DNA of 64,000 bases from contig CM055100.1 in assembly GCA_029204225.1 (NCBI GenBank), positions 6,499,165 to 6,563,164 on the forward strand, in the 5' to 3' direction. The notes beneath the pieces are model-generated. The model had not been told where the DNA came from. It saw only the letters and a list, made by a program, of their open reading frames with translations, and did no database searches. The stretch comes from Diphasiastrum complanatum (Eukaryota > Streptophyta > Lycopodiopsida > Lycopodiales > Lycopodiaceae). A program made the translations under genes and the position numbers. Positions within the stretch are counted from its first letter, which is position 1. Each line of letters opens with the position of its first letter. Of this stretch, positions 799 to 62,910 are shown one piece after another.

Positions 799-837
799 TG
801 TGAAAGATTTTAGATCCTTAAGATCTAGCTTTTGGAC
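799..837 (-). repeat. 3' tip of the 5' LTR of element D, truncated
   Basis: Plus-strand TGTGAAAGAT.. is the reverse complement of an LTR end. About 35 bases resemble the end of LTR G at 16075-16107 (both have GATCTTAAGGATCT followed by TCTTTCACA on the element strand), so D and G belong to related families. The rest of the LTR is missing, and unrelated sequence begins near 838. Confidence 0.7.
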
Positions 838-1180
838 CAACGTTTGATAGGCCACCACTGGAATGGCAGTTCCCTCAGGGATAGCTGGTGGTGCGAAGTC
901 ATTGAAGTCCACAATTTACAACTGTTCCTTCATAGCGGAACGTGCTGCTTGTGAATCTACTATAGCCTCATCCTTCTTGGCTTTGAGGGTATTGATGGTT
1001 TGTTGCATGTTGGATACCTTCAGTTGGAGCTGGTTCTGGAGATGGATTAACATTTGCTGTTGTTGATTGTAATTCGTGAGGTTTTGGATCTGCAACTGTT
1101 GTTGTTTGATTTCCTCCTCCAACCTTGTTTTTTCTTTCTGAAGGCCCACCATAGCACCATCGTCAAATTGTCACATAGTG
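838..1180 (-). pseudogene. Coiled-coil ORF fragment, probably gypsy-element derived
   Basis: The minus strand has an open frame at 1152-916 (78 codons, stop at 918-916). It is rich in Gln, Leu, Lys and Glu with heptad-like spacing, so it is probably a coiled coil. After the stop the same frame stays readable to about 840, with a Pro-rich stretch (FAPPAIPEGTAIP). It resembles in style the coiled-coil parts of ORF-X in E and Q, but I cannot show homology by eye. It abuts the plus-strand ORF-X piece F near 1180-1195, so the two are head-to-head. Function is not recognised. Confidence 0.4.
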
Positions 1181-1194
1181 TGTTGTCCCCCTAG

Positions 1195-1650
1195 GGTGCC
1201 GAATATATTGTATTGGAGCTCATTCACCAACCATACCACGCCACAACGGAACAACACGCAAAATTACAACAATCATACATTGCTTCCGTCGAGGCCCTAA
1301 ACCAGCACATAGCCACCCTGGAAGAATGCTTAAAGGCTGCTGCCCAGTCGACACCGTCGGTTCTTGTAGAGCACGCCCAATTTCATGATTTGGGGCACCA
1401 CTTTGATGGACCTGATGGTGGAGATGGCGCAGGATTTCAACAGCCTCCTCCTGCAACTCAAGGCTTCGCATTTCAAAGCCAACCCTTGGGGCAAGGAGCT
1501 CAAACACCAACCAATCCATCGGGCTCTGGGGGTACTAGCTCCCAACATTTTCTTTTCTCTTCCACCGCTTCTAACCCCCTCGACACCACTAACTCCACCT
1601 TCATTCCATGACACTATTCACCTGAATCACAATGCACAACAAAAGCTAAC
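1195..1650 (+). pseudogene. ORF-X (element F), first part, split by element B
   Basis: The plus-strand frame opens just after a TAG at 1192-1194 and runs to TGA at 1609-1611. It then continues open in the same frame to 1650, where element B is inserted. The first part looks like a coiled coil (EALNQHIATLEECLKAAAQ). It is followed by a Gly/Pro/Gln/Ser linker (about 1420-1600). The frame continues at 14250 on the other side of B. No ATG fits the start, so this is the interior of a longer gene. Function is unknown; it is a downstream gypsy ORF by comparison with E. Confidence 0.5.
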
Positions 1651-2749: not shown

Positions 2750-2761
2750 TGGTATCAGAGC
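2750..2761 (+). other. Primer-binding site of A1
   Basis: TGGTATCAGAGC directly abuts the LTR end CA and is complementary to the initiator tRNA-Met 3' end. Confidence 0.95.
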
Positions 2762-7875: not shown

Positions 7876-8525
7876 AAATTGTCAACATTTCCTAGCTAGT
7901 TTGAGACCTAAATTGGCTAAAATTGTAAATAGTTTTGGTTCTGGAGTTTTGCACGTGTGAACCAGGCCACAATGTTTTTATTTACTGTATTTTTTCAGTA
8001 TGATGAAGTGTCAAACTTCATACCCTTCAAAATGAGACCATTTTGATGTATTTTGGTCATATAAGCCATTTTTAGCTATTTTTTCTATATAGGGAATATC
8101 TAGGGTCAAGTACCTTCTAGAGAGAGGAGAGAGAGTCATCTTCCTCATCCATAAATAGTAGGGAAGTCGTGGAGAACAGGTTGGAGAAACCTTTTGTATG
8201 CTTCATTGAGATCAATAGATCATTGTCATTGTTTCTTCCTCCATTGAGAGCATTGTTGTGTGTATTGTCTTCAAGCTATTGTGTATGATCTTAGGTGCTT
8301 TCCAAAAGTGATAGGCTGATGTATTATGGACTGTATAATGCTATTTTGGGCCGCACTTGATGTTTATGGAAGTTTCCATTTGTGATAAATGCTTTTTGAT
8401 CAAGTTCTTTGCATTCTAGGTAGCATAGAATGTGTTGCCAATTCCTAGCTTATGTAGTTTGGAGTGCAAGCATTCAAGCCAATGATCTTGGAGTTTAGAT
8501 CCACTTAGGATCTGTATTTTTCACA
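7871..8525 (+). repeat. 3' LTR of A1
   Basis: 655 bases, same ends as the 5' LTR. Differences seen by eye: GAGACC for GAGGCC, TG for CA at the palindrome edge, TTAGC for TTGGC, and one T for C before the TATA-like site. G-box core at 7952-7957. Confidence 0.95.
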
Positions 8526-8768
8526 CTTGTGATTACTAATGATTATAGGATTGAATGTAGGCCTGGTGTACAGTACTCAGACTGTGGGAGGCCGTACTTT
8601 CACACGTGTGAAGCCTTCTTCAAGGATTTGGGCCATTTAGTGAGGTTCAAGCATAGATTTTTGATGGATTTTGATGGTTCAACTTGTGCTAATCTTATGA
8701 AATCATAATCTATTGTTTCCCTCATCATTTCAAGTGTTTTAGGATCCTTATTTGCTGTAATTTTTACA
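8526..8768 (+). repeat. 5' LTR of B, right part
   Basis: The first five bases are the A1 target duplication CTTGT. The remainder matches 14007-14244 of the B 3' LTR with one mismatch seen. It ends TTTTTACA at 8768, directly before the PBS. Confidence 0.95.
8599..8612. promoter_or_regulatory. G-box palindrome in B 5' LTR
   Basis: TTCACACGTGTGAA, identical to the A1 site. The 3' LTR of B carries it at 14075-14088. In B it lies downstream of the TATA-like element, so it would be in transcribed LTR sequence. Confidence 0.45.
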
Positions 8769-8780
8769 TGGTATCAGAGC
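8769..8780 (+). other. Primer-binding site of B
   Basis: TGGTATCAGAGC, flush with the LTR end. Confidence 0.95.
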
Positions 8781-9579
8781 CTAAAGGCTGAAATGAGCTA
8801 AATCCTTGGTTTTCATTCAATTTGATCACAATTTTTGATCTAAATCTTGTGTAGATTGGATCTTAGCATCTAGTATTGATTCTAGAACTCAAAGTGAGTC
8901 AAATACATTGGAGATTGGTGTTGTGTGACCTCATTTTCAGGTGTTTAGGTGTCTAAAACCAGAGGCAAAGTTGAATTCAATTCACATTACCAAGATAGCA
9001 AGTTTTGCTTGCTCCAAGCATTGATTTCTAATTGAGTTTTGGAGGTGATTTCATAGAGGAGGCTTTCTAGCATTCAAGGAGAGTGAAGATCAGAGTTTTG
9101 GGGACTCTTCAAGGCTGTTCTAAGGTGTAGTAGGCACCTCCTAAAGTGATTTAGGTTCAGTCCAACCATTGCTTGACTTATGCACCAAATTAGATCAATT
9201 TTTCATCAATTTTGATCATTTTTTGCTTGCGATTGAATAATAGATTGTGTTGCATCCTCATTAAGTTCCATTTAGATATTTTACAAGTGATTTTGGAAGT
9301 ATATTAGGTTGCTGAAATTCACTCTTGATCAGATCATTTGGAAGCTTTAATGTTCTTCATAGAAAGAGGGGCAATTCTACTAGTATTGTCTACTTTAATC
9401 AAGCAAGTGCATTGTTTCTAGTATTCTATGATTTGATTTTGTTAGAGATCATTCTTAGATCTTTATAGGAAGTCTATTACTGATCTTTTCAGGTCCCTAA
9501 GAAGTGGGATAAGGTAGACCTTCAATCAAATCAATAGAAGTAACCTTCATTTGTGTCAAGTCCTTGATTAGGAGACTAG
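8781..9579 (+). other. Untranslated leader of B
   Basis: About 800 bases between PBS and gag ATG, AT-rich, no credible ORF or repeat seen. Confidence 0.7.
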
Positions 9580-12500
9580 ATGGCATCTATAAATGCATAT
9601 CTTTTGGATACTAATGAAAGGCTCAACAAAACTAACTATTCCATATGGAAAGTTAGAATGGAATCCATCATGATCATGCAAGATCTGATGGAAATTGTAA
9701 ATGGTAAGGAGGGTGAACCTATTCATCCTCAAGAAAAAGCCAAATACATCAAGAGGTGCAATGTTGCACTACATTGCATAAAAATGAATGTTGCAAATGA
9801 ACTCTTAAGAGAGGTAGGAGATTGCACTTCAGCTCAAGATGCTTGGGAGACTTTGAAAAAGGTCTATGAATCCAAGAACCAAACTAGAATGTTAGCTTTA
9901 AAGAATCAAATCTATAGAAGCTATAAAAAAAAAGGAGAGAGTGCACATACTTTTGTCCTAAGAGTAAAGGAATTGAACAAAGAGCTAGCCTTTATAGGTG
10001 ATCCTATGAAGGATGAAAAGCTTGTTCAACTCATATTGAATGGACTAAGCTTTGAATTTGACAATTTGGTTCAGGGATATGCAATTATGGGTAAGCTACC
10101 CATACTTGAAGAACTCCAAGGCACACTCATGGCCGAGGAATCAAGAAGGAGCCAAATGCAAGAGAGGATGGATAGGCTTTCCATCCAAGGTGGAGATGAC
10201 CAAGCTCTCTTCACCAAAGGCAAAGGCAAGTCCAAAGGCAAAGTATCAACATTCAAGAAGTCTACAAAGCTTGAGGATCAAGAAGGACCCTCAAAGGCAT
10301 CTCCATCAACCACCAAAGTCAAGAAGGACAAATCAAAGGTGAAGTGCTACTATTGTAGCAAGATGGGGCATTATGCCTCGGAATGCTTCAAGAGGAAGCA
10401 AGATCAAAGACAAGCCAACATGAGCAAAGAGGAGGAGGAGGAGAGTTCACATGAGGACTCTCTCATGATGTCCATATTTTCTTCAATAAGCTTCAAAGGA
10501 GAAGATCCTTGGTGGATTGACTCGGGTGCTAGTTCACAGATGACTAGTAAAAGGCAGTTTTTCTCTTCTCTCTTATCTTATGATGGACCTATAGAGTCTA
10601 TCTATACAGAAAATGATGAAGCTTGTAAGATTGAAGGAGTTGGTATCATTCCCCTTTGCTTAGGATCTTCCAAAAAGATCAACATAGAAGGTGTTTTGTA
10701 CATACCTACAATAACAAAGAATCTACTAAGTGTTGGCCAAATGGTAGACAATGGTTTCAATGTTGACTTTGCTTCAAATGAATGTTTCATCAAGAAGAAG
10801 GGTAAGATAGTGGCTAAGGGCACTAGACTTGGCAAACTTTATAAGTTGGATGCATTTGTGGATACTAATGTTGTCATGTTGGCCGAGAAGAGCAAGATAT
10901 CTACCTTTACCTTATGGCACAAAAGACTTGGACATGTCAACTCGGGTTCCATGGAGGCTATGATCAAGGAGGAGTATGCTTTAGGCCTACCAAGGTCTAT
11001 TGGGAAGGAAGACAAGGTTTGTGAAGCTTGTGACTTATCCAAGGCACATAAGAAGGTGTTTCCTAACTCCATCACAAAGTCATCTCATCCTCTTGAACTC
11101 ATACACTCGGATGTGCACATTGCTAGCACCAAATCTAATGGAGGTTCATCCATGTTTTTAACCTTCATTGATGACTACTCAAGATATTGTTGGGTGTTCT
11201 TACTTTCCTTCAAGTCTCAAGTATTTGATACTTTTGTAAAGTTCAAGTTGTTTGTGGAAAAGCATCATAATCATAGCATCAAGATTCTTAGAAGTGACAA
11301 TGGTGGAGAATTCATCTCCAATGAGTTCAAGGCCTTTTGTGAGGAGGAAGGGATCAAGAAAGAGACTTCTTGTCCTTACACTCCTCAACAAAATGGAGTT
11401 GCTGAAAGAAGGAATAGAACATTATGTGAATGTTCTAAGGCTTTAAGATTAGATGATTGTTTGCCCAAATCCTTTTGGGGTGAGTCTCTTGTATGTGCAA
11501 ACTACTTGATGAATAGGGTGTCTTGCAAAGCAATTGAAGGCAAAACTCCTTATGAGATGTTGTATGGAAAGAAACCCAATCTTAATCACTTGAAAGTTTT
11601 TGGGTGTATATGTTATCTGCATGTGTCATTGGAAACAAGAACCAAGGAGGATCCATCTTCCACAAGAGGGATCATGCTTGGATATGCAAGCTCAAGCAAG
11701 GGCTACAAAGTCTATCTCCCATCCTTGAACAAATTTGTTGTTTCAAGGGATGTCATCTTTGATGAACATCATATGCATATGCTTGAAGAAGGCTCAAGTG
11801 CTCCAGCAATCAAGAAGAAGATGGCCAAGGAGCAAGATCTTGGTTTTGAGGAGGAGCTCATGGAGGAGCAAGCACCAAACCCACCTATCACACCAAGGAG
11901 ATCTTCAAGGGCAAAAGTAGAGCCATCAAGGCTCACATATCAAGGCAAAGGATAGCAAGTTGAGGGTATCTCATCCACTTCTCATGCTTTATCTAGTTTT
12001 GAAGAACCATTTAATGTTGAAGATGCATTGAACTCCAAATAATGGTATAAAGCTATGTTGGATGAGTATGATGCCTTGATTGAGAATGAAACCTGGTTGC
12101 TTGTTGAGAGACCTCAAAGGAATGTAATAGGATGCAAGTGGGTCTTCAAGCTTAAGTTGAATGCAAATGGGAGTGTTAACAAACATAAAGCAAGATTAGT
12201 TGCAAAAGGTTATGCTCAAGAGAGAGGGATAGACTATGAGGAAACTTTTGCACCCGTGGCCAAGATGGTCACAATAAGGCTAATCATTGCACTTGCATCA
12301 CATTTTGGATGGATTCTATGTCAAATGGATGTCTCTAATGCTTTCTTGAATGGTTTTTTGGAAGAGGATATCTATATGGAGCAGCCACAAGGGTTCATCA
12401 AGCATGGAATGGAGAACAAAGTATGCCATCTCCAAAGAAGCATCTATGGCTTGAAGCAAGCCTCGAGATCTTGGAATTCAAGACTACATTGCTATCTTAT

Positions 12501-13548
12501 TTCACTTTCTTTTGTTCAAAGTGAATATGATCCCACTCTTTACATTAAGTTTGATGATGTTGGTATTGTATTTTTACTCATTTATGTAGATGACATCATC
12601 ATTAGTGGAAATAGTGTTGATGGTATTGAAAAAATAAAGATAGATCTATCCTTAGAGTTCAAGATGGTAGATCTAGGGTGTCTTCACTTCATCTTAGGCA
12701 TGGAAGTACTTAGAGGGTCTGATTTTATTTTTATAAGTCAAGTAAACTATGCTCAAAGTCTTTTGAAGAAGTTTAAGATGGAAGTATGCAAAAGTGTTGG
12801 CACGCCAATGGAGCAAGATGTAAAAGTGCCAAATGAAGATGATGAAAGATCCTTCATGGACATCACTTTGTTTAGGCAACTTATAGGTTCCTTAATGTGG
12901 ATCACTATAACTAGACCAGATCTTAGCTTTAGTATATGTAGGTTGAGCCAATCCATGCAAAAGCCATTGAATATTCATTGGAAAAAGGCTAAGAGGATTC
13001 TAAGATACATCTCGGGTACATTGGATTTTGGGATTCTATATAGAGGAGATGTGGTTAACCTTCATGCATTTAGTGATTCAGATTTTGCAGGGGACAAGAG
13101 GGATAGGAAATCAACAAGTGCCTATTCAACTTTCATAGGAGAAGGTGTGGTTTCATGGCTTTCAAAAAAGCAAGAAACTATATCTCTATCTTCAATCGAG
13201 GCCGAGTACAAAGCTTTGACAACCACTACAAAGGAGGTACTTTGGATCAAGAGATTATTGGTGGAACTAAAGATCATGGATTAAGAGGAGGCACCAATCA
13301 TCTACAATGACAATATATCAGCCCAACACCTTGCATCTAACCCAATCTTCCATGCAAGATCTAAGCACATTGAGATATGCCATCACTTTGTGAGAGAAAT
13401 GGTGCAAGCCAAGGAGATTGCTTTGGAGCATGTTCCAAGCAATGAATGTGTAGCTGATCTACTTACTAAACCACTTCAAAAGACACCTTTTATGAAGTTC
13501 AGATCATCACTTGGAGTGATTAGTAAAGCAATGATTGAACCAAGCTAG
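9580..13548 (+). pseudogene. Copia gag-pol of B with three in-frame stops
   Basis: A single frame keeps all copia domains: gag with zinc knuckle CYYCSKMGHYASEC, protease DSGASS, integrase HHCC zinc and DDE core (HSDVH, RSDNGG, NGVAER), RT with YVDD at about 12583-12594, and RNase H. It is closed by TAG at 11953-11955 (between integrase and RT), TAA at 12040-12042 and TAA at 13282-13284 (in RNase H), then reads on to TAG at 13546-13548. The stops fall on positions that are Lys or Glu codons in A1 and C. Each is one base away from those codons, so they look like point decay. No frameshift was noticed. Not functional as a full polyprotein; gag-protease-integrase (791 aa) remains open. Confidence 0.93.
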
Positions 13549-13562
13549 ATAGTGAGGAGGAG

Positions 13563-14244
13563 TGTTAAAAATTCACAATTCTAGCTTGACCAGTTTTGGT
13601 CATATGACTTGTAAATAGTTAGATGGTCATGATGTGGCTTGTCACACGTGCCAAATAGCATAGAATTCCATTCATAAGGATGTTATCAAATAGACCTAAG
13701 TGTTAGAACCTTTGGAATGAGTCCAAATTATGCTTAGATACAAGGGACAAAAAATAGGAGCTATTTTTGGTAATTTTTGCATTGTTGAGGGATCTCCAAG
13801 ATTCCAACCCTAACTTGGTAGGGATGAAAGATCCACCAAAATTAGCATTAGGGATAGGTTTAGGGCTACTCATACCTGCCCAAAACCGTGATGGATCATA
13901 TATATATAGGTGATGATATCTCACCAAAATCAATCAAGCAATTTCATGTTTTTTCTCTCATAATGGTGCAATTGCTCTATATGTTCACAATTGTTTGAGT
14001 ACTTGTGATTACTAATGATTATAGGATTGAATGTAGGCCTGGTGTACAGTACTCAGACTGTGGGAGGCCGTACTTTCACACGTGTGAAGCCTTCTTCAAG
14101 GATTTGGGCCATTTAGTGAGGTTCAAGCATAGATTTTTGATGGATTTTGATGGTTCAACTTGTGCTAATCTTATGAAATCATAATCTATTGTTTCCCTCA
14201 TCATTTCAAGTGTTTTAGGATCCTTATTTGCTGTAGTTTTTACA
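13563..14244 (+). repeat. 3' LTR of B
   Basis: 682 bases, TGTTAAAAA...TTTTTACA, preceded by the purine-rich GTGAGGAGGAG (PPT). TATA-like run CATATATATATAGG sits in the middle; G-box palindrome at 14075-14088. Followed by target duplication CTAAC. Confidence 0.95.
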
Positions 14245-14249
14245 CTAAC

Positions 14250-15120
14250 CCCTCGCCTCCTCTATCTCTTGATCCTGATCCACAAACCGCACACGAGATT
14301 GCCTCTGAAGCCCCCACCATCTGGCACAGAATCACGCCCACAGAACCAAGCAAGGAGTTGCGGGTCTCTCAGGAGTTTGCAAAGAAGTACCCAACAACAA
14401 AAGAGCGAGGTGGCTACATACTGCCAGATTTGGACCAGTGTCAAACACATAAAGCAGCAGTCAAACTCCTAGATCCACAACCTCTCTGGCGCCATCAGCT
14501 CTTCCTGCAAAGTAAGACCTTGATGGCATGGTATCTCAAAGCTCCCTCCTACATGCGTACCAATCCTTATTACTATCCAGTGGCGAGGCGGGAACCATTT
14601 CCTGCCACCAAGGTCAAGAATAGAATCTTTTGGCCTAAGCTCACAAGAGTCAATACCGGCAACTTGGCCGAAGACATGGTCACCAACTGCCGAGTCTTCT
14701 ACCAGAAGCACCATGGCAATCCTGATCGCGATGTCAAATATTTTGCAGACAATTGCAACCTGGTGGCATTTCTAGCCTCAGAGGTTTTTGGGATCAAGGG
14801 TTACCTCCAATTGCCCTTGACATCAATAAACCCTTGTGCACGCAAGACGACCATATCAACATTGCAAGGCTCTATTATCACGCTGCACTTACTTCTGCCT
14901 TGCACGTTGATATGGTGGAGCTACGGAAAATCCATAATTTTCTCCAGGGTATGCTCCAGTATTACAAACTCATGTCCTTCCTGAACAAATTATAGTGGCA
15001 AATGATGGAGGGCATCATGACGACCATCTACTACTCCCGACAACAATAGTCTTTCCTCCAAGAAGCACAAAAAATCCAGGACGAAAAGGCGTCAATTGGT
15101 GTGGGACCACCAATCCAATA
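14250..15120 (+). pseudogene. ORF-X (element F), C-terminal part
   Basis: This continues the frame interrupted at 1650. It is open from the B insertion through 14984 in one frame, but the conserved sequence moves to another frame near 14810 (open to 14995), so a one-base indel broke the gene. The region SQEFAKKYPTTKERGG, a PQPLWR block, a WPKLTRV block and ARLYYHAAL align by eye with the minus-strand ORF-X of E at 20900-20300 in the same order. Downstream come QEAQKIQDEKASIG and then the PPT. I recognise no catalytic motif or named domain. Some ORF-like runs at 14995-15228 are probably frame shadows. Confidence 0.6.
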
Positions 15121-16107: not shown

Positions 16108-16860
16108 TTACCCTATCACTAATAAGCTCTAGAGGACATCCGAACCGAACTATAACCTATTCATAGAGAAATTTGACGGTGGAATGAGCGTCAGCATTGC
16201 GAACAGCTCTTGCTTCAGCCCATTTGGTGCAGTAGTCCATAGCTACTATGATGTAACGAGATTGTGTGTGTCGAGCAGCAGGACTAATAGGTCTAACATA
16301 ATCAATTCTCCATTTCTGGAAAGCTTGATCAGTGGGTACAAGATGTAAAGGCATGTAGTCTGTTTTTTTAAAGTGTTTTGTGTGTTGGCAGACATCACAA
16401 GCCTTAGTGTAATTGTGCATATCCTTGAAGAGTGTTGGCCACCAGAAACTGGCCAAGAGGATTTTCTTAGCAGTTGTTTCGAAAGAGAAATGGCCGGCAC
16501 CAATACCTTCATGAGTGAGGGAAATTATAGAGGGGATTTCTCCTTCAGTAAGACATTGTCGGATAATTCCATCTAACCCTTGCTTGTAGAGTTGTCCTGC
16601 AATTAACGTATAAGGTTTAGTTTTGAGGACCAACGCTTGTTGTTCGGGTTTAGAGAAGGAAGGATCCATCTACCCTGAAGTTAAATATTCGGTAATTTCC
16701 TTAGGCCATAAAGGTGTAGAGTCAACTTGAAAAAGTATTGCATCTGGTAAATCATTGTTGACACCTTGATCAGGGGTAGGAAGGTTAGGGATTCGGGATA
16801 GATGATCTGCTAAACAATGTTGAACTCCCTACCACTTCAATGAGCAATGAAGAATCACAT
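16108..16860 (-). pseudogene. Gypsy integrase and RNase H tail fragment
   Basis: Read on the minus strand from about 16860: a gypsy linker ending RNase H (ADHLSRIPN), then the integrase zinc region (HEGIGAGH, then CDVCQ; an HHCC finger), then the catalytic-core start with D in WRIDYVRPI and a second motif ELISDR near 16110, where LTR G interrupts it. It has at least two stops, one just upstream of 16669 and one near 16155. The family matches the E pol at 25.8-26.2 kb. Both ends are cut by other elements. Confidence 0.85.
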
Positions 16861-18879: not shown

Positions 18880-19991
18880 ACTCTGTTCACAGATTCACTA
18901 AATCAGTGAACACATTTTTTTTCTTTTGTCTTTTATCTCTTTTCTTTTCTTGGATGACTTACTTCTGTTATTATGGTTCTTTGTTGTTCCTCTTCTTATT
19001 AGAACTGTTACAGAGCAGAAGCGTTACTCAGATTTCATTACATATTCCCAACCTGTTAGTGGGTAACTTAAATCCGATACTCAGCTACATGCAAGAAACC
19101 AGCCATGTAACCATCTACAACTCAAGAAGATCAACATTCAGCGTAGAGAGCGATCCTACTACTAACTACTAAATCAGAAAACAATCAAGAACTAGATTAG
19201 CTATTGAAAACAAGATTCAAGAAACAAGAAACAAGATTCCTAGCAGCATTTTAACAATCTAAGAATCAAGAAACACTCATCACTTGATGCTTAGATTACT
19301 CAAGAACAATCAAGAACTAACTGTAAGAGAGTATGCAAGATCTATGCCACAAACCAACCTATCTAGTTTACTTGAATGCTGATTACTACAAGATTCCATA
19401 AGCAAGAACTGAATGCTAATCCACAACTAAACAAGAAACAAGAAACAAGAACCTAGTTTATCCACAATGCAAAGGAATCAAGCATGCTCATAGAAATATC
19501 ACTCAAGATCATTGCCATGAACAAGGAGCTAAGATATCATCAAGAACTCATGGAGGATCCTCTTTATTTGCTCAAGAGAACTTGACAATACAATCAAAGC
19601 TCCCTCACAAGAGAGGGGGGCCCTTAAATAAGCAAGAAGGCTGCCCATGTGGAGCCCATGTGGCAATTCCACTAAATTAGAATTACATGTGGAATTCGCC
19701 CTTCCACTACCATCAAAAGGTGGCTCACTCTAATTAATTTAAGGGGGTTCTACCTTTATTTACAATGCCTAGGAAACATTACTAGCTCCTACATGGTCAT
19801 TCCTTCTTTGGGATACACCATGTAGGCTCACATAATTACTCACTGTCTTCCTAGCTAGTATTTCCTCGGCTCTCATGCTTGGCTCTCAACTTCTTCTGCT
19901 CTCTTCCTTCTGAGACCTCCTCGGTCATGGGTGAGAGATAACTTGTGTCTTCAGCTTGGCTCGGCACTAGAGAATTGGCTAACATTATCCA
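18880..19991 (-). repeat. 3' LTR of gypsy element E (far end uncertain)
   Basis: On the minus strand the LTR starts TGGATAATGTTAGCC at 19991, directly after the purine tract ATTAGGGG (19999-19992). The same boundary occurs in element F at 15119. A TATA-like CTTATTTAAG is at 19632-19623. The region is rich in short AAGAAACAAGA-type repeats (19200-19450). The far end is set by eye and could be off by 100 bases or more. ORFs on the plus strand here are chance. Confidence 0.55.
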
Positions 19992-19999
19992 CCCCTAAT

Positions 20000-22900
20000 C
20001 TATTGTAGGACGCACTGCAACATCGATGATGTCTTCCACTTGGCACTTGAAAAAGCGTGGATTTTCATTTGCTTCCGTAAAACCAGGTGCTTATTATCCA
20101 CAAAATTTACTTCCCAAAATTGGAAGTCTCTCAATTGGCCGCTACATACCAGTCCTCTTGAGCACTTCTTGTGAATCATGTTCGTCTCGTCGTCGCGCTG
20201 TCTGCTTTCGCTCGCTCATCTTTCGGTCCAGGGCTTCAAAAACTTGGAAGCGGAGCTTACTTCCAAAATTAAAGGCCCCCAGATATTCTCTTATCTTTTC
20301 TATGAACCCCATTTTCTGCTAGTCTTCCACCATGGTCACATAGCGTGACGACATGAAGGCCACTCTGTAGTATAGCCTGGCCATCATCTCATGGTCTTCT
20401 TATGACTAGAGGGCCGTATTTGGATTGATCCTAATTGGATATAAGCCTCGATCCCAGAAACACTCTTGATGCATCAGAAAATCCATGGATCTGCAATATT
20501 CAACATTTTTTGCACGCAGAGATCAGCACTTGACTTGTATTTGTGCCCGAAGTCTAGTAACTGTAGCCTCAGATCATCTGGGGTGGTTCTTTCTGTAATT
20601 CCCGGAATGACTGGCCAGTTTACTAACTCCACTCAAGGCTTTTCCACCGGCCATGAGTTTCTGCATTTGAGTGGCATGTAGAAGGGATCCACTCGCTTTC
20701 ATGTCAGTGCCTTCAAATACTCCTGAAGTCACCTGTTATCCTTCAGGACTTTACTTCGCCATTCTGGCTACGGTTGTAGCGCGACAATGATCTCGGCCCT
20801 GGTAGAATATTGGCTTTGATCTATATCTTCTTTGCCTCCCCTCATGTTGGGAGGGTATTTCTTCTCAAACTTCTCTGACTCTCTCGTGTCATCCAGTTTG
20901 CCTCTGGGCCTGGTAGGAGAAGTTGTCCTACGTGGTTGGGATGACCTTTCTAGATAATCGTCTAGGGCCTTGTGCCCGTATCTTTCTCTTTTTTTCGCTC
21001 GCTTGTCGGCGACTCATCTGCACCTGTGTCTGGTCTGGGCGAGAACCTTCTCATTTCTGATTAGTCTGCCAAGAAGTCATCATCACCCCCCCCATGTCCA
21101 TGTTAGTTTCTGGAAGGTTGGGAATGGAATGATCTGGGGAGAGGGGTGCGGGGGTGAACGGTTTAGGAGGAGGTGTAATCAACAAGTTATACGCAACAGT
21201 GAGGGAGTTGAGTTGTTGGAGGAACTCATCCCGTCGGGCTTTGTAAGTGTCAGCTGGACCTTTTGATGGGCCCATTATTTGGCTAGGAGGTGATGAAGAA
21301 AGAAGAGATGGAAGAATTGGGTAAGTTGGAATGAATGTTTCTGAAAAATCAAATGCGGAGTAGGAGAAAGGATTAAAGGTGGGAGGGGGTCTGAGAAAGC
21401 TCATGGAAGCAGCACCGGTTCTCTGGCACCCGATCTTGAGCTACTGTCTGATGGGTGGGTTTGCCCGTCTTGATTTCCTGTACCATCATTCTCATCATCA
21501 TCCTGTGGCTTTATTGGTTGAGCACCTGCTTGAGCCTTGCATGTCGTGTCCCATAGTTGGTTCACCTTGTCCAAGACTTGTTGCAAGGCCTTCGTAGTAT
21601 CTTCTAGCTACTTTTGGGACTCCAGGATGATCTTCTCTTGTTTGGCCACAATGTTTTCGAAGTTTCACTTTTTGGCTTCTCTTTCCTGGATTAACCTTAC
21701 ATATTTTTCCATCCGGATGGCTGAGGCCTGTGGGGCCTAGGATTGAATATCCTCGGGCTTGACTAGAAAAGCATCGACTATCATTGCACTCGATGATCCA
21801 TCTCGTATTTGGTCGATTTGGACCATCTGGTGCTTCAGTTGTTGCTAAACCTCTTCCAAAGTGGATTTCTGTCCGGCCATCACGGATCTGTTTTCTACTG
21901 TCTCTTTTTCTTTTTCTTTGGCCAGCCTTTGATAATGCACTTGGTGCTAGCTCACCAACCAATGCATGTGGTAGCTTGTTTCGGATAGGCCTATCATCGA
22001 ACGTTTGGCTGCTTCAGTGAGCTTTTCAGGGTTAGTGAGAGTTGGATATTGATCTGGAGTGTAGAATGGTGAGGCTAAACTGAAAAATAAACGTGGTGTT
22101 AGAGCTGAAGATGGAGGTGGAGGTGGAGGGAGTGGAGGGATTTGACTTCTTCTTGGTTGCTTCTGTTTTTTTGGCTTGTCGTCGCTGATTTCCATCAGAT
22201 TCACAACATCAAAGTATTGCGAGGTGTCAAGTGTGTGGACTTGCTGGGCTTGTGGTTGCTGAGCCGCTTCTGTGTCCTGGGGACTGGATATCCCCACTCC
22301 TCCCCCTCTCAAAACTTGTGCCAGTGGTGATGTTGGTGGCGTTGGCGTAGTAATCAATGTGGGTGGGGTGGTGGCTTCATCTGGATGACTTGTGACTTGA
22401 GGTACTGTCGCGCGTCAGGTGCCAGTGTTGAGGTAGTTTCTCCATCACCCCCGTCGATGGCATGTGAGGGTGACGAGTGTTGTTGTGATGTTGTTGATGA
22501 GCTTCCACCATCTGCCATGGAACCATGTAAAACTGATCCCACCGGTGACGTGCTCCCAGCTTGAAGCTTCTCTTGCCTCCATTGTTGCCGTGTGCCCGGC
22601 AACTGAGCCCTTGAGGTATCTGCCTATTGAGCTCTGGAAGTTGCAATTGTTTGTGGATCCTGTGGTGGGCTTCTTGGCTTCTGCACCAGAGGGAAGATAC
22701 TGGTGTTGACTCGTTTAGCCTGGGACCCCGATGGTGAAGTGGTCCTTGCACGCTTGGATTCTTACGTTCAATGGGAACTTCCCATGCTTTGTCCGCAAGC
22801 GACAGTTGTTGTTGAAGCTTTGGCCCATTTTGTACTTGATGCAGAGTGATATCTATCATCAGTATATTGTGATGGGATGCTTGTTCTTAATGTAATCATG

Positions 22901-23485
22901 AAGACAATTTGAAGCAAATTGTGCCCAATCATAGAGGTTCTGGGCATGCAGTCGTGAATCTGCCATCATGTGAAATAGGGACATGGGTACTCTCAGCACT
23001 TTCATTCGAGGCTTTTGTGTGCATCTGGTGAGATATGCACATGCTGCTTGAAGTTGCTTGTCGTTGATTGCTTCCAGTCTGTACCCATACTTATTCTTTC
23101 ACTTGGTCATAGAGGGATCAATATACTTGAAATATGTCGTTTGCTCGATATTTTGGAGTGTCCTTGTGACTGTGTTTGGTCCTCGTGGGAACCCATAAGA
23201 TTGCAAGTCAACTGCCGCAAAAGATATGTTATGGACATAATTCCTGATAGGGGGAACTATAATTTGATATGATCTTGCCGTGGTATGATAATTGGCATAT
23301 GCCATGTGTACCAGATACGGACTTTGATAACCTATCAAGACAGGGATCTGAAATTTGATTTCCTTGAAGAAGGACTCCGCCTGCTGGTACCAGGTTTGCA
23401 TCTCTGTAAGGTCTAACTTGCATAGTAGGATGTCGAGCTTGCTTGCTTCGGGATCATCTGAACTTGAACTGGGATTGGACGACAT
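20000..23485 (-). pseudogene. ORF-X of gypsy element E, degenerate
   Basis: The gene is read on the minus strand from an ATG at 23485. Part 1, to about 22866, is a globular region with one in-frame TGA at 23101-23099. Part 2 (about 22860-21950) is a Pro/Gln/Ser/His-rich linker in shifting frames, including a run of prolines near 22120. Part 3 (about 21940-21520) is a coiled coil rich in Lys, Glu and Gln with several stops. After another Pro/Ser linker, part 4 (about 20950-20000) aligns with the C-terminal region of F: FEKKYPP, PEWR, WPVIPGI and ARLYYRVAF in the same order. It ends next to the PPT and 3' LTR. The position between pol and LTR, on the same strand, is clear. I recognise no domain, and it is broken by stops and frameshifts. 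Confidence 0.55.
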
Positions 23486-23574
23486 GGTGGGAAAATGGAA
23501 GAAGGAAGATTCTGGAAAAACTTGTTCGGTTGAGATGTGAGACAGTGGAAAGGGCATCGATTGAGATGTGAAGG

Positions 23575-24300
23575 GTTGGGCTCCGATTGATATGTGAAGT
23601 GGAGGACTTCGGTTGAGTTTGTAAAGGGTTGGGTTCGGTTGAGATGTGAAGTGGAGGACTTTGGTTGAGATGTGAAGGGTTCGGCTCCGGTTGAGATGTG
23701 AAGTGGAGGACTGCGGTTGAGTTTGGAAGGAGGTGGCTCCGGTTGAGATGTGAAGTGGAGGACCTCGGTTGAGTTTGGAAGGAGAGGGCCCCGGTTGAGA
23801 TGTGAGACAGTGGAAAGGGCGTCAGTTGAGATGTGAAGGGTTGGGCTCTAGTTGAGATGTGAAGTGGAGGAATTTGGTTGAGTTTGTGAAGGGTTGGGTC
23901 CGGTTGCGATGTGAAGTGGATGACTTTGGTTGAGATGTGAAGGGTTGGGCTCCAGTTGAGATGTGAAGTGGAGGACTTCGGTTGAGTTTGGAAGGAGGGG
24001 GCTCCAGTTGAGATGTGAGACAATGGAAAGGGCATCGGTTGAGATGTGAAGGGTTGGGCTCCGGTTGAGATGTGAAGTGGAGGACTTCGATTGAGTTTGG
24101 AAGGAGGGGGCTCCGGTTGAGATGTGAGACAGTGGAAAGGGCGTTGGTTGAGATGTGAAGGGTTGGGCTCCAGTTGAGATGTGGTGGAGGACTTCGGTTG
24201 AGTTTGGAAGGAGGGGGCTCCGGTTGAGATGGGAAGTGGAGGACTTTGGTTGAGATGTGAAGGGTTGGGCTCCGGTTGAGATGTGAAGTGGCGGTGTGGA
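23575..24300 (-). repeat. Tandem array, 26-base monomers (array 1)
   Basis: About 25 copies of a monomer starting GGTTGAGATGTGA or GGTTGAGTTTGGA. Most units are 26 bases and some are 31; variants alternate in a loose higher-order pattern. It lies between E pol and ORF-X. The 339-codon minus-strand ORF over it (24473-23454) is Pro/Ser/His repeats and looks like a by-product of the array. Confidence 0.85.
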
Positions 24301-24914
24301 ATGGTTCGGAAAGTGTGTGGGGAGTGATGTATGAAAGGGTTTGGAAAGTGAGATATGTGGAAGATGGCTATGTTAGATAGAGTGGCGTGGGTGGTAAATG
24401 AAAGAGGATGATGTAAAGGAGGGTGAACAGAGTGAGGTCGAGTTAAGAAATATAGGGAGTGGAATAGGAGCAAGTGGAGGTGTTTGACAATGGTTGTAAT
24501 GTTATAGATGTGGATTTGTGAGGAATGAATCGTGTTGAAGGTATATGGTTTGTGATAGTGATTTTAGGATGTTCAATAGTGTGACAAGAGCATGATGAGT
24601 ACTCGCGTGACACTACCCCTCAGCATGCGAAACTTGAAATATGAGGTATTCTGTCGGCGACGGTGGTATGGAAAGTTTCAGTGATGATGCTCACAAGGGA
24701 GAGGTAACGATGTAGAGATGGTGTGAAGATAATGACTGAAGGATTGAATAGTCGAGCGCCAGGATTGGTCATGATAGCAGGAAGATCGTCGCAGATCGTC
24801 GCCAGAAAATAATTGAGCTTCGCACTTCGTTGAGGTGCGAATGGCTTCGGGGTGAGGGCATTTATTGCTGCCGTTGTTTGGTTGCAAGGGAGATGAGATG
24901 TACCAGTTCGTGAA
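24301..24914. other. Spacer between the two arrays
   Basis: About 600 bases without a recognisable gene, part of the E region between pol and ORF-X. The 301-codon minus-strand frame at 25583-24678 passes through it but has no recognised domain. Confidence 0.4.
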
Positions 24915-25245
24915 ATTGGAATGTAGGTCCTCCGGTCGAGATTTGACAGAACTGCTTCGGTCGAGATCTGAAGGACTGCTCTGGTCGAGATCTGAAGGAC
25001 TGCTCCGGTTGAGATCTGAAGGAAGGCTCTGGTCGAGATCTGACAGAACTACTTCGGTCGAGATCTGAAGGAAGGCTCTGGTCGAGATCTGATAGAACTG
25101 CTTCGATCGAGATTTGATAGAACTGTTCCGGTCGAGATCTGAAGGAAGGCTCCAGTCGAGATTTGAAGGAAGGCTCTGGTCGAGATCTGACAGAATCACT
25201 TTGGTCGAGATTTGATAGGAGCACTTCGGTAGAGATTTTGAGAAA
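24915..25245 (-). repeat. Tandem array, 24-25-base monomers (array 2)
   Basis: About 13 copies of a unit starting GGTCGAGATCTGA followed by AGGACTGCTCT or CAGAACTGCTTC. It shares the core GGTYGAGATNTGA with array 1 about 700 bases away, so the two are diverged relatives. Arrays in this place are known for plant Tat/Ogre-type gypsy elements. Confidence 0.85.
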
Positions 25246-25637: not shown

Positions 25638-27604
25638 CTAAATTGGGTCAACAAAGAAAAACTCTTCGTAGTACCGCCGTAGACAACCACCGTTTACGAC
25701 AGTGTCTAGGAGTGTTCCGTCGAGTGTTTGTAACTGGACTACACCATTAGGAAATATTTTGTTAATAACGTATGGCCCCTCACTTCTGACGAAGGATAAT
25801 CTTCGTTGTGGCTTCAACAGAAAAGTGGCCACCTCCAATGCCCTCATGAGCCTGAGATATTATTGGTCGTATCTCAGATTCATAAGCACATCGTCGAACA
25901 ATGCCGTCAATGCCCCTTTTGTAAAGTTGTCCTGCAATTAACTGAAAGGACACTGCTTTTATTAAAAAAAAAAAAATTTCCGTTGTAGTCAGGCCTTCTT
26001 TTAGTTGGTCCGTTGTGAGGAACTGAGTGATCTCCTCAACCCATAAGGGTGTAGCATCGATCTGAAAAAGACACGCATCAGGAAGATCATCATTGACTGG
26101 TGCAGTTGGTTTTTCAGCACTTGGTAGTCTGGAAAGGTGGTCCGCCATGAAATGTTGGGTCCCTTTCCGAATGACTACAAGAAAATTAAATTTCTCCAAA
26201 ATCAGTAGCCATCGATCTATTTGCCCGTCTTACAGGACTTATTAACGATATATAGGAGTTCTTGATGGTGTGTGTACAAAGCAAAGGTTTGGCCTAATAA
26301 ATAATGTTGTAGTTGTTGTACCGCATAGACCATTGCCAATGCTTCTCTCTCGGTAGTTCTATAGTTTACTTCAGCACGCACCAGTTGCCTGCTTAAGAAA
26401 CATATAGGAAAATCTTTGCCATACTCATCCAGTTGTGCAAGGAGACCTCCAATGGCATATTTACTTGCATCAGTATGCACATGGAATTCTTTCGTGTAAT
26501 CTGGCGAGCGGAGTATGGGAGCCATCGTGAGGGCTGTTTTCAACTCCTCAAAGTCCTTAATTCATTCTTCGGTCCATAGCGGATCTACCACAGCTAAATA
26601 AACGAGGCGTGCCTTGCTGGCATCGTCGATTATAAAGATGCGATAATAGTTGGTATGACCGAGGAAGACATATACTTCCTTCACTGTTGCAGGTAGGGGC
26701 ATGTCCACGATAACCTTGATTTTTGATGTGTCGGTAGAAATATCGTCCTTTGATATTATATGCCTGAGTACAACCCCGTGGGTGGCCCATATTTGGCATT
26801 TATCAAGGTTTAGTGAGATGCCAAATCTACAACAACGAATGAAGATTTACCCAAGGTGTCTAGGTGTGTAGCAGCGGAAGAATGTACACCTAGATCATCG
26901 AGATAAATCTCCACGACCCGATATAACAGATCTTGAAAGGCCAATTGCATGACCCGTTGGAAAGTTGAGGAGGTGTTACATAAGCCAAAAGGCATAACGT
27001 TATAAGTGTAAATGCCGCTCTCTATGGCAAAAGCCATTCTATGTTTATCTTCAGGGGCTATTTGAACAAGAAAATAACCGCTGAATCCTCCCAAGAAGCT
27101 GAAAGCTTCAGCTCCTGGCATTTCCTCTAATATTTGGGTCGTTAAGGGCAAGGGAAAATGGTCTTTCTTCATAACCGCATTTAGGTTCTTGAGGTCAACA
27201 CAGAAATGAAGCTTGCCATTTTTCTTGGGTACAACCACAATGGGTGATACCCAATCAGTATGTTGGACTTCATAAATGAAGCCAGCATCCAGCAATTTCT
27301 TGATATCCTCATCGATCCTCTCATGATAGACTGGGTTACTGCGGTAAGGTTTAGCCCTAACAGGCTTAGCATTGTCTTCTAGAGGAATTTGATGTACTAC
27401 TATTTCAAGGAGGATTCCTTTCATTTCGGTATAATTCCATGCTAATACATCCCTGTATTTGCGTAATAAAGTTTCTAGATCAGACAGTTGGGTTGACAAC
27501 AGATGTGCACCAACATGAACTATGTGATCTATGTCCTCATCTTGGCAAAGTGAGCTCTGCCACAACCACCATCCTTCCTTGAAAATGTGTTGATCTTCAG
27601 CAAC
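25638..27604 (-). pseudogene. Gypsy pol of element E, degenerate
   Basis: Minus-strand order: RT (27400-26810; WVSPIVVVPKK, FGLCNTSSTFQRVM, and YLDD near 26910), a gap in other frames, RNase H (26543-26217; HTDASKYAIGG, REALAMVYAVQQLQHYLLG), a linker (ADHLSRLPS), the integrase zinc region (HEGIGGGHFS near 25830), then directly a chromodomain-free C-terminal module (SEGPYVINKIFPNGVVQL) ending at about 25640. The integrase catalytic core between the finger and the C-terminal module is missing. Several stops and frameshifts are present. The lineage is Tat/Athila-like by motif style; this is my inference. Confidence 0.85.
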
Positions 27605-27868
27605 TTGTTCTTTTGCCTGCATTCTTCAGCAATAAGAACATCATGCAGAGCCTCCAAAGATAATAGCTCCTCCTTGATAGCATAAGATTACACAAAATTT
27701 GCATACTCTTTCCTAAGTTCATTAAGGACTACTTGAATAAGTTCACTGTTCTCTAGAGTATCTCCTATGCATGCTATCTCTCTATGAAGATCTTTAACTC
27801 TCATTACAAAACTTGAAGCACTTTCATCAACTCTTTGGAAACTAGAAAAGATCTGATTTTTAAGAGTA
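27605..27868 (-). pseudogene. Copia gag fragment (minus strand)
   Basis: Minus-strand translation gives a mid-gag segment: TLKNQIFSSFQRVDES, then VMRVKDL, then a VLNELRKEYANFV block, matching the gag of A1 at residues 105-165. One stop follows. It abuts gypsy E near 27604 and an oppositely oriented copia pol end at 27868. Confidence 0.8.
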
Positions 27869-41159: not shown

Positions 41160-41170
41160 GGGGGGGGGGG
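41160..41170 (+). other. Polypurine tract of N
   Basis: Eleven G in a row right after the pol stop and before the LTR. In O the same site reads AAAGGGGGG. Confidence 0.8.
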
Positions 41171-41956: not shown

Positions 41957-41965
41957 CCCCCCTTT

Positions 41966-57845: not shown

Positions 57846-60800
57846 CTCAACTGTGCAGTGGCTTGCAAACAATCTGATTTATGTCCTTCTTTGTCGCTTT
57901 TGGCTAGCTGGCTTGCTGTGGAAAATAGTCTTGGCTCGGGCTTCATTCTCTTCATTTTCTTGTTCCAATGTCAGTCCTTTTGTTGCCAGAAAATAGTTGT
58001 TCTTCTAGTTGTAGTCTTCTTGGAATGACAAATTTGGATAACCACCCATTCCTTGATTGCCGATTGGTGCAAGGGGTTTATCAATTAATGTATTATTAAC
58101 AAGATGTGTATATCAACTATCCTCGGTCAGAATTTCAGACATCTCGGCAGAAGGGACAGTTAGTGAAAGGGCAACATATGTATATTAGAGAAATTTCTCT
58201 TAAATATACAGTTGTTGAACAGACAGGAGGGCATATGAAATGAGAGAAGCAATATTTACATGGTTGTAAGTATACTATGGTCTAGTTATTGGGTTAGTGG
58301 AGCGAAGTATATTATTTGCTTTTACTTCCTCCAAATAATGAGAATAGTTAGTTTCCCAATCTGTGTAGATTTTCCACAGATCAGGGAATAAGAACTGATG
58401 AGTAACTTGGGAAGAAACTGATTTAGAGTTAGAAACAACTTCTTTCACATCAAAAATGTTAATTGATTCTAACTTATTCAAATACTCATCCAATGCTGGA
58501 AAAATATTATTTTCAAATGTTCTTAGGTATTCTAAGATGTATATATACAAGGATCCTGTGACCACATGAATATAATTAGTTTGCACATTAAACTTGTTCT
58601 GAACAATGGCAAGGACGAGGATTCTTTTTTGATGTATAGTTAATCTAGACCATAAAGTATTTATGTTAGAAAAAGTCCAAGGGTTCTCCCATTGTTCTTT
58701 TGTGTAACCAAAAAATTTAGGTAAGAAAAGGTAATCCATTCTCCATTGGAGTTCTAGACTACAAAAAGGTGGAATAAAAAATGTTAGTTCCTGATGAAAT
58801 GTCTGAAATTCTAACCTTAGTAGTGAGTAGACAATCTTGTTTTTCTTTACAGCTGCTCCACTTGGTGACGTCTGGGCTTGGTATGGAATGATGCTTAACG
58901 CCTCAGGTTGGTCTTCAGTAGCTTGTACCTCTGCAGCATCCTTGGCTTCAGTCTGTGTTTCTTGATCTCTCAGGATCTACCTGCCGATGATATCCATTTA
59001 AATGGCCTTTTTTGACATTACTGGTGCTGGCTCATCTGTCTACGTCTCCTGATCTTGTCCTTGCGCTGGTTCTTCTGCATCATAAATCTACATTTGGCTT
59101 GATTGGAATTTGGCCTCTTCTAATTCTTCCTTCAGCTTCTCATAAGCAATCATCTGCGACTATAGATATTGCATCTGGAAGGTCTGGATCATCCTCTCCT
59201 GGATTCCCTTCCATGCTACCGGATCAATTCGGTACTTGCCATGAGATACACAGGCACCGAGTGTGACTTCGGCGCTGATTCGCCATAGTATTGCCTCTTC
59301 GGCCTGTTTCTTGTATATCTGATTGTCTTTCTTTAACATTTCTATTGAATTTTGCAGTTGGGCAATTGATTCCTGAGCACTGCTGAGTTCATTGCTCAGC
59401 TCCGCATTGCTACTCTGAAGAGTAGTTTGCACTCGTCTCTCCTCCTGCAAAGTAGCCTACAGGGTCTGTGCAAGGATTAAAGCTAGCAAGAATTGCCATG
59501 AAGCTGGCAGATCAATCCTGTGTAAAACCAAAAGGTGTAGTTGCTGATATCCTTCTAAAGATAGCAGGCATGCAGTTTGTGATTACTGATGGGACGATTG
59601 CCTCTCTCCTTTGGCATTCGATCCAAATAAGTTGATGGCCTTAGAGCAAATCAAAGATCAGTCCATAGTGTAACACTTGGGTGAAGATGTACTAGGTTTA
59701 GGATATGATTCATATTGACATTTCCGACAGTCAATAGTTGCTAATGCATCCGTCCATCTCACGACATCCGTCTCTGAATCATAGTGACCTCCCTTGGCTG
59801 GCCTTGGGCAATCAATCGTGTGATCTGTCATGGATGATCCGTCATCAGCTTTGGGTGCAATAAGTTTCACCGCCCATGTGGTTGGATCAACCTTCACAAC
59901 CTACTCTTTATTCTTGAAGGTGAGTTTCCTCGTATCTCAGCTGTGTACTACCAACACTTCAAGCGTGGCATCCTGCCTTCCTTTCGCTTTTTCAAGCTCT
60001 GTATCTTTTCTGCTCTGCTCTGCATTGGCTACTTCAAACTCCTCATTTCTATAGGCCAACTCAGCCTTTGTTTCGCTCAACTCTGTATCTTTTTGGTGAG
60101 GTCTGCTCGGACTCTTTCATACTTGGACCCCAACTTCCTAGATACCTTCTCCAAGCTAGCAAGATGCTGAATAGCTGCCCGAGTATGGCAGTAGTGTTCC
60201 AAAAACCTTTTGATATAACTCGGCATCGAGAATTGGTTCCTCGACGTCGCTTTCGCTGCCCTGTTGGTCATCAGAAAGCTGTTCTGCTCCTTGTGGTTCT
60301 GGCTCTTGTGGTATTTCAGCCTGATTATGCTCCTGATCAGCAGTGTCCTCCGCCTCCTCCTATTTCCTTCTTTGTTGGACACTGGTGTGTACTGGAATGA
60401 TGGCGAAGTCATCCTCATCGTGCTCCCTTGACTTGATGATGTTGATGTGGCTGCTACGGTGGTTGCCTTTGATGTATGTATCTGGGATTCCACCTCAATT
60501 GATGGTGCTAGCTCTGGTAGTATTGGTGCAAGCCTGATATCCTCCTGCACTGGCAGCACACCAGCATGCATACATAAAATGCCCATTTGCTGACCCATCC
60601 TGGAGAACTGATTAGCTTTTATTAATTTACAGAATTGCTTGAAAGCAATCTGTTCTCCATTAAAAGCTCTCAGCAGGTATCCCATATTGGTATTTGAAAT
60701 TGTGTACTCTTGCTCCGGTAAGAATATAGAAGCAAGAGCAAATAGAACGAAGCTCTTGAGATTGGGGTCTCTTATGTAAGAGAGTTTGTATCTCCGTTTC

Positions 60801-61213
60801 TCAAGATAAGCCTCTTCTTGAAAAGCTTCGCTCTCCGCAATGAAATCTGGTTTAGTAACTGGCATACTGTCATCCATAGACAATCCTAAGGCACGATAGT
60901 AAAACCCCTCTGTGATAACAATCTCTTGATTGCGGACAGTTGTGGAAATATGTCCTTCTTTTGTTTCGCCCAAATTGCGAATCAGCTCATAACATAAATC
61001 AGTAAAAATTACTGATGGATTGAATTGAAGAAGACCTTCAATTCGTGCTCGGACAGCTAGTAGTTGTAATACTGGTATCACTGGCTTTCGGTGCGTTTTG
61101 AATACAATCACCATAGTGCTTGCAGATGTAAACGAGCGATGGCAGACAAGAGCTTGATCGCAACAATTCGCAATTCGAAGAGCAAGGGTGATGGAAAGTG
61201 GTAGCGACAACAA
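57846..61213 (-). pseudogene. ORF-X of gypsy element Q
   Basis: The minus strand has a 378-codon frame (61213-60077): a globular region (FYYRALGL, FVLFALASIFLPEQ, MGYLLRAFNGEQIAFKQFCKL) then a Ser/Thr/Pro linker. Next come coiled-coil pieces (60050-59900 and 59450-59160) around a Cys-containing block (59897-59658). A 154-codon frame (58739-58275; FFGYTKEQWENPW) and a short tail (QENEENEARAKTIF near 57950) follow, ending at the PPT. Parts lie in different frames with stops, so the gene is broken. The layout matches E. No domain recognised; a Met within the first frame (residue 34) could be the true start. Confidence 0.5.
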
Positions 61214-61666: not shown

Positions 61667-62910
61667 TCAAGAACTGATGTATCGGACATTAGCATAGTAG
61701 CGCTTCACCCTTGAACCATTTACTCGAATGTCAAGTAAATGTCCTTGGAGATCAGCTAACTGAAGTGATCCATTATTAAAAACTTCTATAACTTTATACG
61801 GTCCCATCCATCTGGTATGTAATTTTCCAGGAAACAGCATGTGTCTGTTATCATATAGAAGCACAGAGTCCCCTTGTTTAGTTTTTATTTTCTTGATGGA
61901 TTGATCAAAAATTAGTTTTCTTTTATTCTAAACTCGTTCAGTCTCGCTTAATGAAAGACGACGATCCTCTTCCAGTCAAAGAAATCATCCGCTCCCATAG
62001 ACTATCGGGTTCATCCATTTGTTCTTTATTTCTAATGTGAAACGTCGGAACTTGGAATTCTATTGGTAGTATGGGATGCATTCCATACACAAGATGGCAT
62101 GGAATCTGCCTAGTTGTAATCTTTTTGGCAGTTCTTTATGCCCATAAGACAGATGGTAACTTCTGATCCCAATCAGAAGAATGTATTTCCGTTACTTTAT
62201 TCAAAAATCTACATAGAATTTCATTTGCCCGTTCCGTAAGCCCATTTGCTTTTGGATTATATGGAGTGGTTTGATGATGTGTAATAGAAAAATATGACAA
62301 CATGGCTTCTATGGTCTGATCAAGGAAATGGGTTCCCCTATCGCTAACGAGTTCTAAGGGACAACCATATCGCGTGATAATGTTTTGGAATAAAAACTTT
62401 GCTACAATCTTAGCATCGTCCTTAATTGTGGCTTCGGCCTCTACCATCTTGGTAGCATAGTCCGTTGCAACGAGTATGCGACGACACGTTTTACGCGTGA
62501 TCGGTTTAATAGGCCCTACAAAATCTATTCCCCATTTCTCAAAGGGTGCTAAGGGAATAATTGGAGTAATTGGAGTTGCGAAGCTGGGTTTTCCCATCCT
62601 CTAGCATGCATCACATTTTTTAATGAATAATTTAACATCTCTATAGACGGTAGGCCACCAATATTTAGCATTGAAAATTTTTTTTGCAGTGTTTTTAAGA
62701 GCATAGTGACCCCCCAAATCTTCCTCATGTAATGCACTTATTACAATGGTTGTCTCGGTTGGTTCTAAATATCAACGGAGACTATCGTCAGCTCCTAATT
62801 TATACAATATACTATTCACAATCGTGTAAGGTCCTACCTTAGAAAGAAAAACAGTTTTTTGTTGTTTATTAAAATGTTCAGGATCTACCTTGTCTTTAAC
62901 AAGGGCATGT
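61667..62910 (-). pseudogene. Gypsy integrase of element Q
   Basis: Minus strand: zinc region (HEEDLGGHYAL then CDAC, with a stop right after, near 62598), core with D in GIDFVGPI, D in LVSDRGTHF and E in NGLTERAN (35 residues between the last two), then LPSVLWA and a stop at about 62136. The following region is in other frames. The C-terminal module MGPYKVIEVFNNGSLQL ends at TAG near 61667. Catalytic residues persist, but stops and a frameshift break the gene. RT and RNase H are not found upstream. Confidence 0.88.

Follow-up and report, generated by a model that had tools for sequence, protein, structure and literature searches.

A selected gene between pol and the 3' LTR of Ogre/Tat/Athila-like gypsy retrotransposons

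The window, meaning the whole 64-kb stretch of DNA that was analysed, contains parts of three gypsy retrotransposons, here called E, F and Q. In element E an additional reading frame, ORF-X, lies on the same strand as pol, between pol and the 3' LTR. The recognisable parts of E, given with the evidence for each and with loci elsewhere in the genome numbered L, are the following:

25641..27625, minus strand: E pol remnant comprising RT, RNase H and an integrase with a deletion (Pfam, reading frames, comparison with copy L011)
24930..25220, minus strand: tandem array 1 of E, with a unit of 24-25 bp, in the leader that separates pol from ORF-X (TRF; common core motif)
23527..24291, minus strand: tandem array 2 of E, with a unit of 26 bp, adjoining the ORF-X start on its upstream side (TRF; common core motif)
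22865..23485, minus strand: E ORF-X N domain, ATG at 23485, one internal stop here (tblastn; family shared-variant omega 0.28)
21716..22862, minus strand: E ORF-X Pro/Ser/Gln linker and first coiled-coil stretch, broken here (tblastn with the open frames of L010 and L019; heptad score)
21344..21712, minus strand: E ORF-X second coiled-coil stretch, broken here (tblastn; family omega 0.40, 228-nt part)
20142..20890, minus strand: E ORF-X C domain with the stop at 20144-20142, broken here (tblastn; family omega 0.28; stop codon)
19985..20000, minus strand: E purine-rich tract GATTAGGGGTGGATAA ahead of the 3' LTR (sequence)
18884..19984, minus strand: E 3' LTR, TG...CA, 1,101 bp (ends common to copies; sequence)

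The minus-strand order of pol, tandem arrays, ORF-X, purine tract and LTR given in a preliminary description of this DNA is borne out by the reading frames, TRF, tblastn and the sequence itself. The span of 20000..23485 assigned there to ORF-X is correct at its start, the ATG at 23485, and incorrect at its end, position 20000 belonging to the purine tract and the stop codon lying at 20144-20142. Several stops and shifts of frame disrupt this copy of ORF-X. A second LTR of E was not found in the 64-kb window. Upstream of ORF-X, reading frames and Pfam matches on the minus strand place the RT at 27625-26813 (RVT_1) and the RNase H at 26561-26220 (RT_RNaseH), followed by a partial integrase at 26229-25783 (Integrase_H2C2 match below the Pfam cut-off); about 0.9 kb of integrase region present in copy L011 is missing from E. 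The frames upstream of about 27690 resemble a copia gag when read by eye.

The four acidic positions of the native RNase H, also read by eye, are mostly kept in the readable E copies (5 of 6, 4 of 5, 3 of 5 and 6 of 6), and no further RNase H is seen between the RT and integrase of E, in a view that starts at the RT. Since elements with an additional RNase H always have a degraded native one, according to the available part of PMC10508981, E most likely has no additional RNase H, with the part upstream of the RT lying outside the view. For the same reason the lineage of E is left at Ogre/Tat/Athila-like, and the elements that carry ORF-X are non-chromovirus gypsy retrotransposons of this kind.

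Elements F and Q contribute five further features:

826..1239, minus strand: F ORF-X piece, inverted relative to the rest of F (tblastn with the L037 and L039 frames)
1207..1650, plus strand: F ORF-X coiled coil and second linker (tblastn)
14247..15118, plus strand: F ORF-X linker end and C domain (tblastn; family omega 0.37)
60080..61213, minus strand: Q ORF, N part, linker and coil, a 378-aa open frame (open frame; omega 0.36, first 240 codons)
62139..62600, minus strand: Q integrase core frame, same strand as the Q ORF and upstream of it (reading frames; Pfam rve 2.6e-13, 62136-62597)

F is indeed in two plus-strand pieces (1207-1650 and 14247-15118), as had been described, and only its second half was visible at first because nested insertions split the element and the upstream piece is inverted. 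The position claimed for the Q frame is likewise confirmed, 61213-60080 following the integrase at 62600-62139 on the minus strand. The likeness noticed between the C-terminal parts of E and F proves to be homology, with 33% identity over about 230 aa, and it extends to the N parts, with 26% identity over about 200 aa (tblastn, cut-off 1e-8). The integrases are 62% identical between E and F, 56% between E and Q and 49% between F and Q. A comparison of the E/F N profile with the Q N profile gave a probability of 0.2%; both profiles are very shallow (Neff 1.8 and 1.2), and the result is therefore read as homology undetected and not as a refutation. Thus the earlier claim that one ORF is present in all three elements stands for E and F by tblastn homology and is not supported for Q by the profile comparison; Q carries a selected ORF at the matching place, with homology to E/F undetected.

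Several other elements share the window. The segment at 1651-14246 (+) is inserted in the F ORF-X, with CTAAC at both borders and nested copia copies inside. Two copia elements at 3922-7875 and 44801-48754 (+) both have full 1,317-aa gag-pol frames and both carry a 185-aa antisense ORF; the repeat copies shared by the two are 97-100% identical over most pieces, so that these two elements look recent. A large nested inverted repeat at 40400-42737, with arms of 334, 341 and 146 nt that are 89-90% complementary, is foldback-like. An integrase fragment at 16157-16669 (-), sharing 84% identity with the F integrase of L035, marks a further F-like element downstream of E.

ORF-X recurs above chance in the genome to which the window belongs (1.74 Gb, 5,176 contigs, those up to C23 being of chromosome size, 42 to 101 Mb among those shown, and C24 at least 7.9 Mb). 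The N part of E gave 2,990 first-look candidates, the F C part 10,300 and the F N part 7,452, each with at least 150 scored matches, and the Q ORF gave 4,189 candidates with at least 110 scored matches. The contrary outcome foreseen in the preliminary description, a captured sequence unique to this locus, is at odds with these many copies and with the homologues in two families. The same genome has 11 matches to dynein heavy chain (best 1.7e-41), a protein that flowering plants are not known to have, and the host is therefore probably a plant with swimming sperm. Around matches to the E N part, 16 loci of up to 9.9 kb each were fetched; in this set, which was selected through ORF-X, by-eye counts find a clear same-strand pol upstream of ORF-X in 7 of 16 and the LTR end reached in 12 of 16.

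The majority of the ORF-X copies examined are broken, and the 5' and linker parts are highly variable. The extent of the protein is nevertheless visible in the better copies. In L010 (556 codons), L011 and L012 the N domain lies within open frames of 521-577 codons, two of these frames beginning in the leader; in L019 three consecutive stretches from the linker to the C domain lie in one frame with single stops between them; and in family F a frame of 797 codons in L037 extends from the N domain as far as the first part of the C domain. The L010 and L037 frames exceed the minimum of 250 codons for extra ORFs given in the accessible text of PMC6317226. In F the N and C domains lie a median of 2,303.5 nt apart (range 1,778-2,694) in 14 places, picked by eye, where hits to both occur together. 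Together with the open frames of L019 and L037, this spacing establishes ORF-X as a single protein of roughly 1,000-1,100 residues, consisting of an N domain, a Pro/Ser linker, coiled coils and a C domain. An identical F N domain occurs twice on contig C8 of this genome (G000), at 54.12 and 54.33 Mb in opposite orientation, and this pair is either a segmental duplication or an assembly duplicate.

Selection on ORF-X was assessed by comparing variants found in at least two copies (shared, mostly older than the insertions) with variants found in one copy (private, mostly decay after insertion). Expected counts for E were derived from the mutation spectrum of its LTR, and fixed mutation weights modelled on E were used for F and Q. 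The E set comprised 23 copies and keeps the pairs L002/L004 and L016/L023, which are apparently close kin; the F set comprised 12 copies after removal of the near-duplicates L030, L034 and L036; and the Q set comprised 9 copies, L045, L046 and L048 being left out.

In the E N domain the shared variants include 79 nonsynonymous and 107 synonymous changes (omega 0.28, 0.20-0.37) and the private variants 126 and 42 (omega 1.13; Fisher p 5.7e-10 for shared against private). The E C domain behaves in the same way, with 71 and 93 shared changes (omega 0.28, 0.21-0.37) against 117 and 44 private changes (omega 0.99; p 1e-7), as does a 228-nt part of the coil (27 and 29 shared, omega 0.40; 40 and 13 private, 1.32; p 0.0056). 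In family F the C domain has a shared omega of 0.37 and a private omega of 0.92 (p 0.0031), the wrong frames giving 1.21 and 1.30; before removal of near-duplicates the values were 0.50 and 0.86 (p 0.072). The Q N part has 0.36 and 0.87 (p 0.0075, 9 copies). The difference was not significant for the F coil and linker (0.44 and 0.78, p 0.056, 12 copies), and no selection signal was found in the Q linker and coil (0.86 and 0.88, 9 copies). Private variants are thus near neutral, at 0.87-1.13 across the E N and C domains, the F C domain and the Q N part. Omega near 1, named beforehand as evidence against a gene, is absent from the shared variants of the E N and C domains and the F C domain.

The controls set the scale of these values. 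The RNase H-integrase piece of E has a shared omega of 0.33 in its true frame and of 1.49 and 1.08 in the other frames; the three frames of the E LTR give 0.69 (p 0.039), 1.22 and 0.80, the first of which indicates that moderate departures from 1 arise without coding; and the E leader gives 0.94, 0.94 and 0.95. Purifying selection on ORF-X is therefore comparable in strength to that on the RNase H-integrase piece, and ORF-X is a real, selected gene. Stops occur among the shared E variants (5 in the N domain, 16 in the C domain), from which it follows that defective E lineages multiplied too.

The leader of E lacks a coding signal and separates ORF-X from pol, so that translation from a separate RNA is likely. 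Both E arrays are built on one common core motif, and in the window its 34 sites all fall at 23539-25214 on the E strand. Across 17 E copies there are 349 sense and 2 antisense sites (3-44 per copy), whereas 28 F and Q loci contain one occurrence; the conservation of the motif is partly circular, the sites having been chosen by the motif, and is weaker when re-anchored on a shorter word. In family F, L037 and L040 were found to contain no such arrays, and the arrays are therefore not general to ORF-X. Among the E copies no common TATA-like box was found upstream of ORF-X, the leader shows no clear signal of ATG depletion, and the TTTTT(C/T)(C/T)AG that is common ahead of the E start does not clearly stand out in conservation from the sequence around it. 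In L037 and L040 a TATA-like CTATATATAG precedes the F start and is followed by ATGGCT, a candidate internal promoter for ORF-X; two F copies are too few for a claim of this kind.

Protein searches matched ORF-X to no described family. There was no Pfam match at the curated cut-off, the best weak matches being SPX (0.0066, Q copy L042) and, in E copies, Sec7-like_HUS (0.011) and Condensin2nSMC (0.015); no match among PDB sequences up to E 1; only two weak matches in PHROGs (0.05-0.06); and none confirmed of 17 and 82 pattern matches in IMG/VR viral contigs. AlphaFold models from 10-sequence alignments were unusable (mean pLDDT of 46.6 in the C model and 36.3 in the N model). Coiled-coil stretches were recognised by heptad score, and basic clusters are few and weak. 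A 19-residue hydropathy scan found no transmembrane segment in the seven frames tested, the highest means being 0.78 in E, 1.14 in F and 1.32 in Q, and the usual limit for such segments being about 1.6. In the F locus L038 a gag-like frame at 1329-2525 (+) (Retrotrans_gag E 1.3e-4, below the cut-off) runs into the middle region of ORF-X; RT, integrase and N domain look as if deleted there, and the locus is possibly a non-autonomous derivative. The idea that ORF-X is a misplaced gag was rejected on account of this separate, adjoining frame.

Sense ORFs located downstream of pol and ahead of the 3' LTR form a described class, termed eORF-3'F (PMC6317226) and aORF-3S (PMC7264820), whose function is disputed; these surveys and the review, in their available parts, leave open whether such extra ORFs do anything. 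The gene was thus called unrecognised with only partial justification: the class of position had been described, while the protein itself matches no described family. No title or abstract opening in the literature searched describes the ORF-X protein, which may be listed in the supplementary eORF tables of PMC6317226. ORF-X of E in the window occupies the position that defines the class, on the same strand from pol to the 3' LTR, and resembles the published examples, as presented in the excerpted text, in having no known domain, an Ogre/Tat/Athila-like element as carrier and, in E, tandem repeats nearby. It differs from them, as far as these excerpts go, in the conserved ends in two families, in the measured selection, in the lack of a transmembrane segment and in its host, probably a plant with swimming sperm.

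Other extra ORFs offer partial parallels. The Transposase_28 (TRP28) ORFs of Retand likewise lie in a long region between pol and the 3' LTR, with arrays as in E and a suggested role in regulation, but they are antisense and reported only from flowering plants in the part of PMC11963269 available, whereas ORF-X is sense. The plant mobile domain (PMD) ORFs of Ogre are, in the accessible part of PMC6317226, also extra ORFs with a lineage-typical domain. ORF-X has no Pfam match to TRP28 or to PMD (PF10536), and the genome search found neither, its control being silent too. The target motifs of VANC, the anti-silencing system of VANDAL DNA transposons, are dense and uniformly oriented in tandem repeats, to judge from the consulted text of PMC5735166, and E likewise has a dense, near-uniformly oriented array of a short motif in a non-coding part of its own element. 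E is a retrotransposon, however, the likeness lies in the layout of the arrays, and within family F none were found in L037 and L040.

ORF-X is very probably a selected accessory protein gene of these elements; homology in two families and purifying selection uphold the conserved accessory protein that had been proposed. Having been kept intact by selection while the elements were active, it probably helps them to spread. The protein is probably translated from its own RNA, either spliced or from an internal promoter, would oligomerise through its coiled coils, and could be a trans-acting regulator of its element, probably in the nucleus, with a part in transcription, RNA handling or escape from silencing. 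Such a nuclear regulatory role is favoured, tentatively, because of the coiled coils and the analogy with Grande gene23, an antisense accessory protein that is reported to be nuclear and to have its own promoter (PMC7264820, available part). For family E it is conceivable, though improbable, that ORF-X assembles into oligomers on its own element's arrays and there lifts silencing or activates transcription, forming a self-recognition system; if true, ORF-X and the arrays in E would be a retrotransposon counterpart of the anti-silencing of DNA transposons by VANC.

The strongest competitor to nuclear regulation is a factor in assembly or nuclear entry, one that would serve the virus-like particle or the pre-integration complex as a structural partner. 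Coiled coils between two flanking domains suit a scaffold, and selection is as strong as on the enzymes, but Pfam searches found no particle or import motif, and this role is rather unlikely. A movement-protein-like or chaperone role, a published suggestion for such ORFs (PMC7264820, in its available part), is very unlikely for a protein that matched no described family in Pfam. An envelope-like protein, the proposal made for other sense ORFs of plants at this position, would likewise be encoded on the same strand after pol, as in Athila and Calypso (PMC1142308 and PMC7264820, in the parts available); it is disfavoured by the lack of a transmembrane segment, no 19-residue stretch of the seven frames exceeding a mean hydropathy of 1.32 and those of E and F reaching at most 1.14, and is highly improbable.

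That ORF-X is a captured or passenger sequence, functionless and open by chance, would fit the broken state of most examined copies and the variability of the 5' and linker parts, but is scarcely credible given the selection in E, F and Q, the homologues in two families and the many copies. The selection signal rules it out, barring an artefact of copy sampling.

Selection has thus been measured on an ORF in the region from pol to the 3' LTR, the dead copies with their neutral decay providing an internal control, and the comparison of shared and private variants is applicable to other extra ORFs. For ORF-X, this measured selection means that the issue is no longer so much whether the gene has a function as what role it plays in its elements.
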